Positions 30,370 through 64,000 of a stretch of 64,000 nt of DNA are shown here, one piece after another. The number at the start of each line of letters is the position of its first letter. Within the stretch, counting starts at the first letter, position 1. The DNA comes from Pelobacter sp. GTDB lineage: Bacteria; Desulfobacterota; Desulfuromonadia; Geobacterales; Pseudopelobacteraceae. Both the position numbers and the translations under genes were made by a program. The stretch lies in contig JAVBXN010000060.1 in assembly GCA_030824515.1 (NCBI GenBank), forward strand, positions 62,001 to 126,000, in the 5' to 3' direction. A model generated the notes under the pieces. It saw only the letters and a list, made by a program, of their open reading frames with translations, made no database searches and was not told where the DNA came from.

Positions 30370-30534
30370 CAGTTAACCGCCGAGAAAAACGGATGCACGC
30401 CGAGAAAACCTGAACTTACATCAAAAAAGTTAATCACCTTAAGGTTGACCCAGTATTTTGTTCAAGCTTTTGATTTCTCGCTTGGAAGCGCCTACTACTG
30501 GCGGCGTGTATCGGCGTTCATCGGCGGTTAACTG
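30370..30534 (+). repeat. 165-bp inverted-repeat element, copy 1 (MITE-like)
   Basis: The ends are imperfect inverted repeats of about 35 bp, with AGTTAACCGCCGA at the left and TCGGCGGTTAACT at the right. Repeated short modules (CACGCCGA, ATCGGCGTTC) lie just inside. An internal hairpin contains GGAAGCGCCTACTACTGG. A second copy, in the opposite orientation and mostly identical, lies at 57362-57524. It encodes nothing. It sits in the gap between the MFS gene and tex, so it may move by a transposase supplied in trans. Confidence 0.9.
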
Positions 30535-57361: not shown

Positions 57362-57524
57362 AGTTAACCGCCGATGAACGCCGATGCACGCCGCCAGAAG
57401 TAGGCGCTTCTAAGCGAGAAATCAAAGGCTTGAACCCAATACTGGTTTAACCCATAAGGTGATTAATTTTTTGATGTAAGTCCAGGTTTTATCGGCGTGT
57501 ATCCGATTTTCTCGGCGGTTAATT
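57362..57524 (-). repeat. 163-bp inverted-repeat element, copy 2 (MITE-like)
   Basis: Reverse orientation of the element at 30370-30534, with the same ends (AGTTAACCGCCGA ... TCGGCGGTTAA) and the same internal landmarks, including the AAGCGCCTACTTCTGG hairpin region and the TTAATCACCTTA segment. It sits exactly at the boundary between recX and the inserted exported-protein cluster. Confidence 0.9.
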
Positions 57525-57561: not shown

Positions 57562-58755
57562 ATGAAACAGTTGCTGCGAGTGTCGTTGTTTTACATGAGT
57601 CTGTTGCTCTTCTGCTCTCAAGTTGCCATTGCGTCCGGCAGCGCTCCGATTACCGTTGAGGTGGAAGGTTACGGCAGCATCGTCGGCGGCCGCAAGGATA
57701 CGGCACGGGAAAGCGCGCTGAGGAATGCTTTCCGGCAGGCGATCGAGCAGGTGGTCGGTGTCATGGTGCAGTCAAAGACGGTGGTGCAGAATTCGGAACT
57801 GCTCAATGACAAGGTGCTTTCAAAAAGCGCCGGTTTCATAAAGACCTACAGTGTCTTGTCGGAAGTGTTCGAGGCCGACGCCTGCCGCCTGAAGGTCAGG
57901 ACGACCGTTTCCGCTGTGCGGCTGGAGAAGAGCCTGGATGATGCCGGCCTGCTCTCGAAAAAACTGGACAAGCCCCGTATCGCGATCATCATGACCGAGC
58001 AGAACATCGGAAACGACACCCCTTCCAATACCCTGGGCAACGGCACCGTCAATGCGGGGATTTCCGAGAGCGTCATCAATGATTATTTCGCCAAGAAGGG
58101 CTATAACCTGGTTGACCGGGATACTCTGGTCGCCCTGGCCCGCCGGAGCGGTTTCTCGCCCGCTTCGGTCAACGAATCGGACAGCGAAACCGCGCTGCAG
58201 ATAGCCTCCAGCGGAGGCGCCGAGGTGGTGGTTGTCGGCCAGGCCGTTGCCAAGGCAGGTTCCGGCGTCCTGAGCGGCACCAATATGCGAGCCTCCCAGG
58301 CGACCGTTTCTGCCAAGGTGGTCGATGCGGACACAGCCCAGTTGATAGCATCCTGTTCGGCCTCCAGCAATGCCGTTCATGTCAATCCGACCGCCGGCGG
58401 CGCCGATGCCTTGAGAAAGGCTTCCAGGGAACTGGCTGAAAACATGAACAAACAGCTGGTTGCCAAGTGGGGTAAAAAGGTTTCCGGAACCCGCACCGCG
58501 CGCCTGACAATCGATGGCGTCGTTTTTTCCGACATAGCGGGTTTGCGGGAAATGTTGCAGAATCGGGTGAATTGCATTGAAGAAACCTTCGAGCGGGGTT
58601 ACCGGGACGGCACGCTCAGCCTTGATGTCGAGATTACCGGCAAGGCACGGGAAATGGCCGATGAAATAGCTGCTGCCAACATGAACGGCTACCGGTTCAA
58701 CGTGCTTTCATTTTCCGGCAACACCGTCAAGGTCAAGATGGATAAAGTACATTAA
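57562..58755 (+). CDS. FlgT-like exported protein
   Basis: 397 residues. A signal peptide (KQLLRVSLFYMSLLLFCSQ, cut near AIA) precedes a FlgT-N-like domain (VEVEGYGSIVGGRKDTARE then LRNAFRQAIEQVVGVMV). A CsgG/FlgT middle-like Rossmann fold follows (PRIAIIMTEQNIG ... YNLVDRDTLVALA ... GGAEVVVVGQAV), and then a small C-terminal domain. FlgT builds a ring in Vibrio flagellar motors, but here there are no flagellar genes nearby. ATG 57562 has AGGGGAGGGGAAG just ahead. It heads a four-gene cluster of exported proteins. Confidence 0.82.
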   Translation: MKQLLRVSLFYMSLLLFCSQVAIASGSAPITVEVEGYGSIVGGRKDTARESALRNAFRQAIEQVVGVMVQSKTVVQNSELLNDKVLSKSAGFIKTYSVLSEVFEADACRLKVRTTVSAVRLEKSLDDAGLLSKKLDKPRIAIIMTEQNIGNDTPSNTLGNGTVNAGISESVINDYFAKKGYNLVDRDTLVALARRSGFSPASVNESDSETALQIASSGGAEVVVVGQAVAKAGSGVLSGTNMRASQATVSAKVVDADTAQLIASCSASSNAVHVNPTAGGADALRKASRELAENMNKQLVAKWGKKVSGTRTARLTIDGVVFSDIAGLREMLQNRVNCIEETFERGYRDGTLSLDVEITGKAREMADEIAAANMNGYRFNVLSFSGNTVKVKMDKVH

Positions 58756-58767
58756 GAGGGGGACGAG

Positions 58768-60762
58768 ATGCGTAGACAGATATATTCGATTCTTGGCGCT
58801 GCTGTGATATTTGCCGGGGGGTGCGCCACGCCCGGAAAGGACAGTTTCGATCTTGCCCGTGAACTGGAACGCCAGAACCGGTTTGAAGATGCTCTTCCGA
58901 TGTATGAGGATGCCTACAGCAAGGAAGCCGGCAATCCCGAATACCGTGTGGCGTTGAACGGTATCCGAACCCGCCTGGCCCAGCAGTCGATTGTCAGCGC
59001 CCGGGAACAGTTGGCAATAACTCCTCAAAAGTATGAAAATCTGCGCACGGCCCAGGGCTTTGTGGACAAGGCTCTGAAAATAGATTCCGCTAACTCCGAC
59101 GCCAATGCCCTGGCTGAGTCGCTCAAGGTGCAGATGGGCGCCATGGCAAAAAAAGCCGAGGAGACTTACAGCGCCGCGATGAAAGCGGTCGAGGCCAAGG
59201 ATTGGTTGACCGCCCTCAACTCGTTCAAGGAAATCCGGGCCTATTATCCCAACTATCTGGATCTGGGCATGAAGATTACCACCACTGAAAACAGCGCAGT
59301 TTCCTACTATTTGAAAGAGGCGGACCGCTCGAAATCAGTTGATGATGTGGATGGGCTGATCAGTAACATCGAGGCGGCGCTGGTTGTGCAACCGTCCAAC
59401 AGCCAATTGACCGCGGTGCTGAACGATGCCAGGTCAAAGAACATCTCTGCCGTCAACCTGGAGAAGGCGGAAAAATTCGCCTCCGAAAACAAGTGGGATC
59501 GTGTGCAGTTTTTCCTGAAACGGGCGCAACAGCTCGGCCCGAATGCCGGCGAGTCCGGAAGGATTAAGAAGCTGTATTCGGAGGGTGGCGCGAAGCTGAT
59601 GGAGAGGGCCGCCAAGGATTTGAAAGGCAAAACGCTCTACAGTGCCTATGTCGATACGATGCGGGCCTATGAGTTCAGTCCGTCGGCTTTCAAGACGCCT
59701 GAAGCGGACGAACTGCGCAGCCAGATTATTTCCCAGCTGCTGGCAAAGGGAGAAGAACTGGATACAGCTGGATATAGCGGTTATGCCCTGTACCTGACCG
59801 AATGCGCCTATCAGCTGTCCGGTTCCCAGAAGGAAATCTACAAATCGATTCAGCAGCTAAAAGACAAGGTGCGTCAGAGGGTGATCAAGAAAATCGCGAT
59901 CATGGACTTCAACCCACCGACCAACAGCCTGGATGCCGGACGTTTGGTTACCGACAGCCTGCTGTCACACATGACCAAGAATGCCAGTGGTGACGTCAAG
60001 ATCCTGGCTCGCGACGTACTGGGGGCTTTGATCAAGGAGATCGAGCTCGGCCAGGCCGGCATGTACGATATTGAAACTGCCAAGAAGTCCGGCAAGCTGA
60101 AGGGTACGGATTATTTCATTTTCGGGAGCCTGTTGCAGTACACCGTCGAGAACAACAAGGAAGAAGGACAGAAGATGGTGATTGCAACGGTTGGCAAGGA
60201 GCGGGAACCGAATCCGCAATACATGACCTGGCTTTCCGCCAATCCCAAGGCATCCGATGATGAACGGAGAAATGCTCCGCCGCCATTCATCGAAAAGGAC
60301 AAGACCGAAACTATCCGCTACAAGGTGGCTACGCACCGCAAAACGGCCAACGTGACTATCTCGTTCCGGGTTGTCGATGTCGAATCCGGCGAGGTTGTGA
60401 TCACCAAGACGCTGAAGAGCAAGAAAGAGGCCGTGGGCAACTATTCGGAAGGTGTTGACATCGCCGGTATCGCCTATCAGAAGATCGAGCTGCCGCCCGA
60501 TTCGGAACTGCTTGAAAAGGCGGTTGACGAGGCTATTACCGATCTGGGGCACCATGTGCTGTCCCGTTTCCAGAACCTTCAGGAAAGCTATCTGAATACG
60601 GCCGAAACTCTCAAGAAAAAAGGTGAGATCGAGCCGGTGGCCGAAAAGTACATGGCTGCCGTGGTAACGGAAGAGGTGAAAAACATCAAGTCCCCGGTCA
60701 CCGAAAACGCCCGGCGCGAGCTTGACCGGTGGCTGAAGCAGTCGGAGAATTATCCGATATAA
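58768..60762 (+). CDS. TPR lipoprotein with CsgG-like domain
   Basis: 664 residues. The signal peptide ends AVIFAGGCATPG, a lipobox with Cys19. TPR-like helices cover about 25-350 (NRFEDALPMYEDAYSKE, AVEAKDWLTALNSFKEIRAYYPNY). A CsgG-like domain follows at about 365-600: KKIAIMDFNPPTNSLDAG, VKILARDVLGALI, KGTDYFIFGSLLQY and VTISFRVVDVESGEVV. CsgG itself is the curli export pore; the TPR fusion suggests a scaffold or partner at the outer membrane. It follows the FlgT-like gene by 12 bp. Confidence 0.82.
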   Translation: MRRQIYSILGAAVIFAGGCATPGKDSFDLARELERQNRFEDALPMYEDAYSKEAGNPEYRVALNGIRTRLAQQSIVSAREQLAITPQKYENLRTAQGFVDKALKIDSANSDANALAESLKVQMGAMAKKAEETYSAAMKAVEAKDWLTALNSFKEIRAYYPNYLDLGMKITTTENSAVSYYLKEADRSKSVDDVDGLISNIEAALVVQPSNSQLTAVLNDARSKNISAVNLEKAEKFASENKWDRVQFFLKRAQQLGPNAGESGRIKKLYSEGGAKLMERAAKDLKGKTLYSAYVDTMRAYEFSPSAFKTPEADELRSQIISQLLAKGEELDTAGYSGYALYLTECAYQLSGSQKEIYKSIQQLKDKVRQRVIKKIAIMDFNPPTNSLDAGRLVTDSLLSHMTKNASGDVKILARDVLGALIKEIELGQAGMYDIETAKKSGKLKGTDYFIFGSLLQYTVENNKEEGQKMVIATVGKEREPNPQYMTWLSANPKASDDERRNAPPPFIEKDKTETIRYKVATHRKTANVTISFRVVDVESGEVVITKTLKSKKEAVGNYSEGVDIAGIAYQKIELPPDSELLEKAVDEAITDLGHHVLSRFQNLQESYLNTAETLKKKGEIEPVAEKYMAAVVTEEVKNIKSPVTENARRELDRWLKQSENYPI

Positions 60763-60816
60763 AGCTGCCGGGTCATTTTATTGATTGTTTGATTTGCAAT
60801 ATCGGGAGGGGAATAA

Positions 60817-63027
60817 ATGGCTGTAAGGATATTGTATGCTGCAATGTTGCTGCTGCTGGGCATTGCCGGCACCGCATCGGCGCAGGTGGCGAATTTCAAG
60901 CCACGACTCGGCTGCATACCTTTCATGGCTACCAGCCTTCAGGCGATGGCTTTTACCGAAAACATATCCTCCTCCCTGCTCGACAGTATCGACAAGACCG
61001 GCCATTTTGAAGTGGTTGAACGTAAAAAAGTAGAACATTTCATAGAAATCGAAGGACAACGTCTTGATAACCTGAACCATGACGGCATAGTCAGAGTCGG
61101 ACTCAAGGCCGGTATTGACTATGCCGTGCATGGCAGCGTAAGCATGACCGACTCAGGAGCAAGCCTGGAAGTTAACCTGATCGCTGTGCGTTCGAAGAAG
61201 ACGCTGATGAAGGGTACTTTCCGCATATCGGAAAGCGATTTTACCCGCCAGCTGCAGAGCATTGCTGCCACTATCGTCGAACGCGTGAAACAGTCGGTGC
61301 AGGAGTCTCTGGCCACGCCGGAAGTGGTTCAGGTGGTTGTTCCGCAACCCAGGAACATAAGCGTCAGTGGAACTTCCACCAGTATCAGGCTGACCTGGCA
61401 GATGAGCGACATGGAACAGATTGCCGGTTTCAACATCTATCGCTCGGTGCACCCGGATGGCCCCTTCTCGCTGCACGGGACCACGACCGAGCCGATGTTC
61501 GTTGATGACCGCCTGAAATTGAACGAAGTATTCTACTACCGGATATCGGCGGTAAACAGATCCGGCATCGGCTGCGAGTTGACTGCCGCGGTGCGCGGCG
61601 CCACGGTGATTGCTCCGCCGGCACCCATATTCCTGAATGTACAGCCGGACATCAAGGGAGCCAGGCTCTCATGGCGTCCAAGGCCGGGCGCCGGTTCGGT
61701 TTCAAGTACGGTACCGGCCGCTTTCAAGATCTATCGCAAGAATGAGAGTGATAACACTCTGGTGATGGTGGTGCAGTTGCCGGTTGAAAGTATTGAGTAC
61801 TATGACGGCGACCTCAAGGACGGAATCAAATACATATATACGATCACCGCCTGCAACAGCGAGGGGGCCGAGAGCGAGATGTCGGCCCGGCTCAGTGTGG
61901 TGCCGCTGCATCCGCCAAAGCAGGTCAGACCCTTGAGCAATCTTATCCGTCAGATTCCGATCAGTTGGGATGCCTACGGCGGCGAATCGGCCGAAGGATA
62001 TGTTCTTTACCGTTCCGAATCCCGTGACGGGAGCTATGCCCGGATAGCAAAACTGGATCTGCCTGCCACGATCTCCTACACCGACAAAAAGCTGGCTGAC
62101 AATACCAGCTATTGGTATCGGCTAAGCGCCTATAAAAAAGGCGGCATCGAAACCGATCCATCTGACCCGGTTTCCGCAAAGACCAGGGATGTGCCGCCGA
62201 AACCGGCCGCTTTGACCGCCGAGAGCGGCCAGCCGCGCAAGGTTACCTTGCGCTGGCAGAATGTCGGCGTTGCGGAAGATGAAATCACGCAGGTGCTGAT
62301 CTTTCGCTCCTTGACATCGGCGGATATGAAGTTCGAGAAAATCGGCGAAGTTCGGGCGGACATGACCAGCTTTGTCGATGACATCCGGCCGCTGCTCGAC
62401 AAGACCAGCTATTCCTACCGGATCAGCTCACAGAATTCGGGCGGCGCGTTGAGCCCGATGACGGATAGTGCCGTGGCAACCACAAAGTCGCCGCCGGAGG
62501 CGCCGGCCGGGTTAGCCGTGAAGTCCGGCCTGGTAAAAAAGGCGACTGTCAGCTGGCAGAGGAACCGGGAGAACGACATCAAGGAATACCATGTCGCCCG
62601 AAAACAGGCGGGGGATCCGGAATACAGGGAAATCGGTATAACCGCCGATACGGTCTTCGAGGATCTTGAACTGGCGGATGGAGCCGAGGTTTCTTACAAG
62701 GTCAGGGCCTTTGACCGGGATGGTCTGGTTAGCGGTTATAGCGATGCGGTCAGCGCCCGGACCAAGCCACTGCCGGCCAGGGTCGCTGGTTTCAGGATTG
62801 CCGATCAGGCAAGCCGGTCGCTGGAGTGGCAAGCAAACAGGGAAGTAGATGTGCTTGGTTATGTGATATACAAGAAAGGGTTTCTGGGGGTGGCGCAGAA
62901 ACAGACCACTGTTTCCGCAACCAGCTGGAAACCGGCCGAAACCAGGGAAAAAGCCGAATACTATGTTACCGCTCTTGATGCCGCTGGCCTTGAGAGCCCG
63001 CCTTCCGAGTCAGTCAGTTTCGAGTGA
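60817..63027 (+). CDS. exported CsgG-like protein with six fibronectin type III domains
   Basis: 736 residues. After a signal peptide (cut after TASA), residues 25-175 form a CsgG/TolB-like domain: LGCIPFMATSLQAMAF, GHFEVVERKKVEHFIE and GLKAGIDYAVHGSVSMT. Six fibronectin III modules then begin near residues 188, 279, 378, 468, 567 and 653, each with the conserved Trp/Tyr pattern (for example LTWQMSD ... FNIYRSV ... YYRISAVN). It ends without an anchor. The modular tail suggests surface or extracellular binding. A ribosome site, CGGGAGGGG, precedes ATG 60817. Confidence 0.85.
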   Translation: MAVRILYAAMLLLLGIAGTASAQVANFKPRLGCIPFMATSLQAMAFTENISSSLLDSIDKTGHFEVVERKKVEHFIEIEGQRLDNLNHDGIVRVGLKAGIDYAVHGSVSMTDSGASLEVNLIAVRSKKTLMKGTFRISESDFTRQLQSIAATIVERVKQSVQESLATPEVVQVVVPQPRNISVSGTSTSIRLTWQMSDMEQIAGFNIYRSVHPDGPFSLHGTTTEPMFVDDRLKLNEVFYYRISAVNRSGIGCELTAAVRGATVIAPPAPIFLNVQPDIKGARLSWRPRPGAGSVSSTVPAAFKIYRKNESDNTLVMVVQLPVESIEYYDGDLKDGIKYIYTITACNSEGAESEMSARLSVVPLHPPKQVRPLSNLIRQIPISWDAYGGESAEGYVLYRSESRDGSYARIAKLDLPATISYTDKKLADNTSYWYRLSAYKKGGIETDPSDPVSAKTRDVPPKPAALTAESGQPRKVTLRWQNVGVAEDEITQVLIFRSLTSADMKFEKIGEVRADMTSFVDDIRPLLDKTSYSYRISSQNSGGALSPMTDSAVATTKSPPEAPAGLAVKSGLVKKATVSWQRNRENDIKEYHVARKQAGDPEYREIGITADTVFEDLELADGAEVSYKVRAFDRDGLVSGYSDAVSARTKPLPARVAGFRIADQASRSLEWQANREVDVLGYVIYKKGFLGVAQKQTTVSATSWKPAETREKAEYYVTALDAAGLESPPSESVSFE

Positions 63028-63046
63028 CCTGAAGAAAGGAGCAAGT

Positions 63047-63370
63047 ATGAAAAGTCTTTGTATGGTTGCAGCGATTGCCATTTTTACGGCTACCAACGTG
63101 CAGGCCGGCGATGCCGGAAAACAGCCGCAGGAGATCGGCCGATACCAGCTGTTTCAGGGCACTTTTACCACACTTGACCTGAAGTACAGCCAGGCCTCTT
63201 CGACACATAATGCGGTTTTTCTGCTGGATACCGTAACCGGGCAGGTCAAGAGGTATTCCAACAGAATCGATGAAGACGGGCGCTATATCGAAACCTGGCT
63301 TCCGACAGACGTTACCCAGCAGATGGGTCCCAAAAAAACATTTCCACCTCAAGCTGAAGGGAAACAATAA
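63047..63370 (+). CDS. small exported protein closing the cluster
   Basis: 107 residues with a signal peptide (KSLCMVAAIAIFTATNVQAG). The mature part is short and hydrophilic (GRYQLFQGTFTTL ... NAVFLLDTVTGQVKRYSN), resembling one beta-propeller-like strand set, but no family is recognised. AAAGGA precedes ATG 63047. It lies 19 bp after the fibronectin gene, and alaS starts immediately after its stop, so all are probably co-transcribed. Confidence 0.7.
   Translation: MKSLCMVAAIAIFTATNVQAGDAGKQPQEIGRYQLFQGTFTTLDLKYSQASSTHNAVFLLDTVTGQVKRYSNRIDEDGRYIETWLPTDVTQQMGPKKTFPPQAEGKQ

Positions 63371-64000
<630 letters not shown>

Follow-up and report, generated by a model that had tools for sequence, protein, structure and literature searches.

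The ring-forming domains typified by FlgT, FlgP, CsgG and PelC have been described in individual machines that are well studied. PelC was reported as a 12-fold lipoprotein ring around the tetratricopeptide repeats (TPRs) of PelB (PMC12141448), ring formation in the FlgP/FlgT family was reported to correlate with an insert that separates the SHS2 helix from the following strand (PMC12222027), and TraC of Myxococcus, needed there for efficient outer-membrane exchange, was reported as a TPR outer-membrane lipoprotein (PMC8546572). Here, a stretch of 64,000 nucleotides from Pelobacter sp. (assembly GCA_030824515.1, contig JAVBXN010000060.1, positions 62,001 to 126,000, forward strand; hereafter the window) was analysed for a cassette of four genes, named A to D, encoding a FlgT-like protein, a TPR lipoprotein with a CsgG-type domain, a protein with a CsgG/TolB_N-type domain and six fibronectin III (FnIII) modules, and a small exported protein. 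The four genes form one unit, gained or lost as a block, and probably build an undescribed outer-membrane structure. The parts were already known; what is new, as far as could be seen, is that they are combined in this way and inherited all or none, and a literature search, with preprints and most subscription papers outside its reach and judged partly by titles, found no such cassette described.

Gene unit and co-inheritance

The four genes follow one another on the + strand over 57562-63370 (Table 1), with recX on one side and alaS, starting at 63371, on the other; the open reading frames bear out the preliminary description of this DNA, which had four exported-protein genes packed in one orientation. 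Of the 76 family genomes, 20 have a strong match to A (E<1e-120), and these are also the ones with strong matches to B (E<1e-200) and C (E<=1e-40); the carriers include G059 and G060, each in one or two contigs. Weaker matches were wider (B at E<=0.001 in 44 of 76, A at E<=1e-8 in 39 of 76, both sets including the 20), and the 24 extra B-matching genomes carry partial matches, mostly to the TPRs. Excluding the window, 19 loci have a B at least 50% identical (L036-L052, L088 and L107; locus and genome numbers, L and G, are ours), and 18 of them have recA, pilT or recX upstream and/or alaS downstream, L044 being the exception. For B-negative genomes, the site was checked in a sample (16 of 56 genomes, 15 with an alaS match, eight genera): PilT, RecX and AlaS were consecutive in all 15, with RecX and AlaS matches no more than about 200 nucleotides apart, and no match to A-D was found at the recX-alaS site in any of the 15. 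Since the strong matches share the same 20 genomes and the site is empty in the sampled B-negative genomes, the block comes whole or not at all, in nearly every case at one site, and the four genes are one unit, gained or lost together. The empty sites in close relatives allow a clean same-genus comparison of block present versus block absent.

Beyond the family, a related-locus search gave 28 loci with labels including Geobacteraceae/Desulfuromonadales, Nitrospirae, Desulfobacterales and Syntrophaceae. In a phylum sample of 395 genomes, 24 gave a match to B at E<=1e-40, among them the window itself (G000) and what appears to be L043 (G075); 19 of the 24 were taken with flanks, plus G060, and G181, G208 and G316 were left out. 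Co-location was counted over 41 distinct loci with B at 450 bits or more, from several families and Nitrospirae-labelled records, which are not a random sample (L089 and L090 are the same loci as L057 and L060, and each pair entered once). Counts come from a six-frame profile search; the open reading frame picker missed B in L040 and A in L088 and L092. A lies at most 160 nucleotides upstream of B in 37 of the 41 loci (L058 with the first domain only), and C at most 250 nucleotides downstream of B in 36, so the genes that the preliminary description placed side by side are co-located elsewhere. The five loci in which C was missed are L046, L062 and L101, which are cut off by the contig edge, and L061 and L063, which are not. 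Outside the 41 loci, five further genomes (L102-L106) hold B-like proteins of 196-250 bits with no A and no C close by, so that B-type lipoproteins also occur alone.

The intergenic gaps of 12 (A/B), 54 (B/C), 19 (C/D) and 0 nucleotides (D/alaS) suggest that A to D are cotranscribed as one transcript. Consensus scans returned eight promoter-like sites (3.5 expected), none in the recX-A gap, and seven terminator-like sites (6.6 expected), one of them at 57512 in the recX-A gap; the A/B, B/C and C/D gaps hold no terminator-like site on the + strand, and these scans neither prove nor deny a single transcript. The ratio of nonsynonymous to synonymous divergence (dN/dS) was 0.02-0.24 in those 11 of 15 comparisons in which dS was not saturated, and the cassette genes are under purifying selection. 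Upstream of A, the order includes cinA, recA, pilT and recX, these housekeeping names being assigned by reading the translations. The same upstream region holds a 20-base intergenic motif with two GCCGATG steps (57367-57386), which recurs once in the window, on the other strand with one mismatch (30509-30528; two found, 0.01 expected).

Table 1. Coordinates of the cassette genes and their domains in the window; export signals and the B lipobox were judged by eye.
Feature	Window positions	Strand	Description
Gene A	57562-58755	+	397 amino acids; FlgT-like exported protein; longer TTG-start reading from 57523
A residues 31-114	57652-57903	+	FlgT_N/LPP20/FlgP-type domain, including the segment aligning to C. 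jejuni FlgP
A residues 133-309	57958-58488	+	PelC/CsgG/TolB_N-type domain
Gene B	58768-60762	+	664 amino acids; outer-membrane-type lipoprotein, TPRs and CsgG/PelC/LpoB-type domain
B residues 24-372	58837-59883	+	TPR-type helical array
B residues 373-604	59884-60579	+	CsgG/PelC/LpoB-type domain
B residues 449-537	60112-60378	+	long predicted beta-hairpin, strands 449-481 and 507-537, conserved helical tip
Gene C	60817-63027	+	736 amino acids; exported, CsgG/TolB_N-type domain and six FnIII modules
C residues 28-175	60898-61341	+	CsgG/TolB_N/FlgO-type domain
C residues 178-735	61348-63021	+	six FnIII modules: 178-265, 266-362, 363-459, 460-558, 559-651, 652-735
Gene D	63047-63370	+	107 amino acids; small exported protein of no known family

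Genes for giant proteins of 2156-2271 amino acids were seen directly 5' of B in the Syntrophaceae-type loci L061 (3112-9927), L062 (3299-9865) and L063 (3464-9934). PKD domains were found in the L061 and L063 giants, with which the L062 giant clusters; A sits behind the giant gene in L061 and L063, and an RHS-repeat protein lies 3' of B in L061. In L094, from a distant family, the cassette is again near recA and alaS, by eye across a cinA-like gene.

Domain content and predicted folds

By its domains and predicted structure, A is FlgT-like along its whole length. Pfam FlgT_N scored 30.2 bits (cut-off 28.8), CsgG fell just under its cut-off (19.6 against 20.8 bits) with the domain recovered through the predicted structure, and FlgT_C was not detected in the Pfam scan. 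Foldseek of the AlphaFold2 model (mean predicted local distance difference test, pLDDT, 75.6) gave as best matches the LPHT ring (8z5n, 2.4e-11) and FlgT (3w1e, 1.3e-10) over about 400 columns; against 3w1e, the alignment spans 402 columns with a global root-mean-square deviation (rmsd) of 17.5 Å, so the domains of A match FlgT and the domain arrangement does not superpose. The predicted middle domain matched PelC (VIA Z 11.5), CsgG (10.8) and TolB (10.6). The A profile matched PDB chain 9hmf_C at E=2.9e-8 over 77 positions with zero gaps, and CsgG weakly (E=0.64); we take 9hmf chain C to be C. jejuni FlgP, the record title being putative lipoprotein. As this gapless alignment to FlgP crosses the stretch after the SHS2 helix, A may be able to form rings.

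In B, a lipobox was read by eye at Gly18-Cys19, and the lipidation cysteine, Cys19, is invariant in 24 of 24 alignment rows. Pfam cut-offs were passed for CsgG (50.9 against 20.8 bits), LpoB (27.3 against 22.3) and TPR_19 (25.2 against 25). In the AlphaFold2 model (mean pLDDT 85.6, predicted template-modelling score 0.54), the C-terminal domain matched PelC best (VIA Z 14.4, rmsd 2.1, 117 residues), followed by FlgT (13.5), CsgG (12.6) and TolB (11.1), so that a lipoprotein family weakly similar to TraC now has a predicted fold for its C-terminal domain. Foldseek of the whole model returned TPR proteins in its top rows and a first CsgG row (4uv2) at 8.2e-5, and the B profile against PDB sequences found mostly TPR proteins, with CsgG not found at E<=1. 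The tip of the predicted long hairpin has invariant residues N482, P483, Y485, W488, A503 and P504; over 24 rows the hairpin is mostly hydrophilic, with many conserved charges, short hydrophobic runs and few alternating hydrophobic residues. This hydrophilic hairpin makes a membrane-spanning CsgG-type barrel or pore less likely; a pore was among the forms that the preliminary description had offered.

The CsgG-type domain of C was recognised through its orthologues. The window copy, with a signal peptide read by eye, scored 12.5 bits as a whole protein and 16.0 as the domain alone against Pfam CsgG, both under the cut-off; among 22 orthologue domains at E<0.1, matches were to CsgG in 18 (best 1.1e-8), LpoB in 15, TolB_N in 14 and FlgO in 11, and against the PDB the C domain matched TolB (7mx5, E=0.0072). 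The FnIII part is plain: Pfam fn3 scored 75.7 bits, and leave-one-out models built from five modules recognised the sixth every time (E 8e-23 to 5.4e-8 for the window copies), which agrees with the six modules first described; module 5 is missing from two of the 22 orthologues (L049 and L050). For D, no family was found in Pfam or NCBIfam scans and no solved relative was found; a small D-like protein lies 3' of C in L094, L097 and L099 (22-26% identity).

Three CsgG/FlgT-superfamily proteins in a row had been proposed from the sequence, and this holds for A and B by Pfam and structure and for C by way of its orthologues; structure prediction, Foldseek and profile comparison did not refute the fold relation to CsgG and FlgT. 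In profile-profile comparison (hhalign), A and B matched each other with a probability of 59.5%.

Proposed assembly and alternatives

A to D may encode one outer-membrane-associated, non-flagellar ring or scaffold assembly with FnIII arms, a reading which we prefer tentatively and place somewhat below an even chance. It rests on the co-occurrence of A, B and C, their shared recX-alaS site and adjacency, the FlgT/FlgP likeness of A and the PelC/FlgT/CsgG likeness of B; the gene unit, its co-inheritance and the domain families were observed, the signal peptides and lipobox read by eye, and the folds predicted. Ring formation, how A packs with B and C, which way the FnIII rod points and what the assembly does are what we infer on this basis. 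B would be lipid-tethered to the outer membrane, with its TPR arm and CsgG/PelC-type domain hanging in the periplasm, where the latter would oligomerise into a ring under the outer membrane. A, FlgT-like with a FlgP-type ring segment, would pack on the B ring as a second ring, and C would dock through its CsgG/TolB-type domain so that the six-FnIII rod could extend to the wall or the surface of the cell. D would be a small accessory or cargo, and the cassette would serve as a structural scaffold or for surface display rather than as a membrane pore. A surface partner is hinted at by the giant PKD proteins that separate A from B in L061 and L063.

Several observations weigh against this assembly. 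The C N-terminal profile has no detectable relation to the profiles of A and B (hhalign probability 2.0% and 1.8%), and the FlgP-like segment of A is of low confidence (low pLDDT at residues 70-90) in a model that is middling overall. In the six-frame profile search, A was not found in L057 and L062, and it is cut down to its first domain in L058; the Syntrophaceae-type loci L061 and L063 are without C and have the giant protein between A and B. The D profile was found in only 23 of 41 loci, and D is therefore not established as a constant part. TolB, LptE and LpoB, which appear in the fold searches of A and B, share the superfamily yet are not known to form rings, so the fold alone is no proof of a ring.

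The four genes could instead form an outer-membrane export channel, with B as a CsgG-like pore or PelC-like ring passing C, D, another protein or a polysaccharide and A as a periplasmic adaptor, which we consider unlikely. The Pfam CsgG score of B and its CsgG/PelC fold are consistent with a channel, as is its alignment to CsgG across 139-167 residues in the CsgG fold-match rows shown, and the long strands of B presumably lie at the place of the first barrel hairpin of CsgG. The giant PKD proteins of L061 and L063, and an NHL/Ig protein within the L055 cluster, also speak for such a channel, and TPR arms beside PelC-type rings are known from PelBC (PMC12141448). The hairpin argues the other way, being rich in conserved charges and poor in alternating hydrophobic residues, and lowers the case for a membrane-spanning CsgG pore in particular; moreover, none of the four genes, to which the search was confined within the genome, encodes a PelB-like barrel with TPRs. 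CsgE, CsgF and curlin repeats (PF10614, PF10627 and PF07012) gave no match in the window's own genome at E<=0.001, each having matched in an E. coli positive control, and the curli system, from which the preliminary description had already separated the locus, was rejected on this ground.

As a cell-wall regulator, B would be a peptidoglycan-synthase activator composed of a TPR arm and an LpoB-like domain, with A and C as wall-linked partners. LpoP and LpoB are reported as peptidoglycan-synthase activators, B passes the Pfam LpoB cut-off, the C-terminal domain of LpoB is among the fold matches of A (Z 9.4), and the TPR part of B matches LpoP in a weak profile comparison (E=0.2). We hold this role to be improbable, as B reached 13.6 bits against the NCBIfam LpoB equivalog (cut-off 110.55) and its CsgG match is far stronger than its LpoB match; to our knowledge, Lpo systems have neither FnIII arms nor a FlgT-like partner.

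A part in an accessory flagellar motor ring, comparable to the H-ring of Vibrio or the basal disk of Campylobacter, would account for an A that is FlgT-like over its full length and FlgP-like in its first domain, and the P-ring protein FlgI is present in the host genome. FlgI was found in 67 of 76 family genomes, however, and its presence does not set those with B (19 of 20) apart from those without (48 of 56; p=0.43); the cassette sits at recX-alaS with its own genome's FlgI on a different contig, and G019 (76% complete) has the cassette and no FlgI match. We know of no FnIII proteins or TPR lipoproteins among FlgT partners, and regard a motor ring as very improbable. A flagellar accessory was accordingly rejected, and the locus is, as first proposed, not a flagellar one.

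Slimmest is the chance of a TraC-like role, as an accessory lipoprotein supporting surface receptors and outer-membrane exchange as in Myxococcus: 23 of 24 B orthologues match the NCBIfam TraC model (NF040658; best 2e-19), the best stretch of window B is C-terminal (residues 508-629) and TraC is likewise a TPR outer-membrane lipoprotein (PMC8546572), but window B, at 37 bits, stays far below the curated cut-off of 500, the best stretch lies in the TPRs for L094, L061 has no match, and another protein in the own genome outscores B (36.2 against 22.6 bits; 0 of 1 over the cut-off), by which score TraC orthology of B was rejected.

Second gene block and other CsgG/FlgT-type genes

Members of recurrent clusters of further exported proteins flank the cassette in L054-L056, L060, L091, L097, L099 and L100; these neighbour clusters rest on the open reading frame picker and are lower bounds, and L097, L099 and L100 are from one genus. 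Members of this second block examined with Pfam include proteins of LPP20 type (mostly weak), FlgO or CsgG type, FlgT_N, TPR-SLH and transglutaminase. Within the family, second-block genes form a separate locus, recognised by position and similarity in L143, L147 and, in part, L156. The TPR-SLH protein of this block occurs in 28 of 76 family genomes, 14 of 20 with the cassette and 14 of 56 without (p=8e-4, shared ancestry ignored), and six cassette genomes have no match; the association of cassette and second block is only suggestive.

With the second block included, a larger machine can be drawn, which we find doubtful: two or three stacked rings (FlgT-, CsgG/PelC- and TolB/FlgO-type), neither flagellar nor curli, would hold FnIII spokes or a surface arm in an undescribed envelope machine, extended by the second block in Nitrospirae-labelled records and several Desulfobacterota and tying the outer membrane to the cell wall.

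In the window's own genome, a partial second block lies on contig 41 (L156, 9389-11566), with a TPR-SLH type lipoprotein gene followed by one for another exported protein. Paired FlgT-like genes recur across many family genomes at a locus distinct from the cassette; in G059, two adjoining FlgT-like matches (L146, 7942-8442 and 9079-9726) lie in open frames of 371 and 379 amino acids. Two further CsgG-type proteins were noted, one a 240-amino-acid exported CsgG protein (L001, 1423-2145; 172 bits) whose genome gave no match to CsgE, CsgF or curlin, and the other a 625-amino-acid protein (L002, 1363-3240) with a CsgG-type domain at 60.9 bits and a C-terminal part that is WD40-like by eye.

Comparison with known systems

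Three superfamily proteins in an all-or-none unit outside flagella and curli suggest structures that nobody has sought, and each described relative covers a part of the cassette. LipL46, a Leptospira lipoprotein, resembles A over residues 32-330 (NCBIfam NF033164, 64.4 bits), below the curated cut-off of 400, and A, unlike LipL46, has no lipobox by eye. TraC shares with B the plan of a TPR outer-membrane lipoprotein and a weakly similar C-terminal stretch, and differs from it by score; the TraC account consulted (PMC8546572) mentions no FlgT-like or FnIII partner genes. To CsgG, the curli pore, B is related by Pfam and by fold, whereas its predicted hairpin is hydrophilic, it carries N-terminal TPRs and its genome is without CsgE, CsgF and curlin.

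FlgT of the Vibrio H-ring is approached by A in its FlgT_N domain, in its middle CsgG-type domain and in a full-length structural match, whereas the cassette has no flagellar context, does not track FlgI and gives A a TPR lipoprotein and an FnIII protein as partners. FlgP/LPP20 of the Campylobacter basal disk aligns without gaps to the first domain of A; A has two extra domains and, again, no flagellar context. PelC is the best VIA fold match both of the C-terminal domain of B and of the middle domain of A, and a lipoprotein and TPRs are both involved in PelBC, whereas in B the TPRs precede and are fused to the ring-type domain within one lipoprotein, which also has the long hairpin. Where TPRs are combined with a ring, PelBC is the nearest working model.

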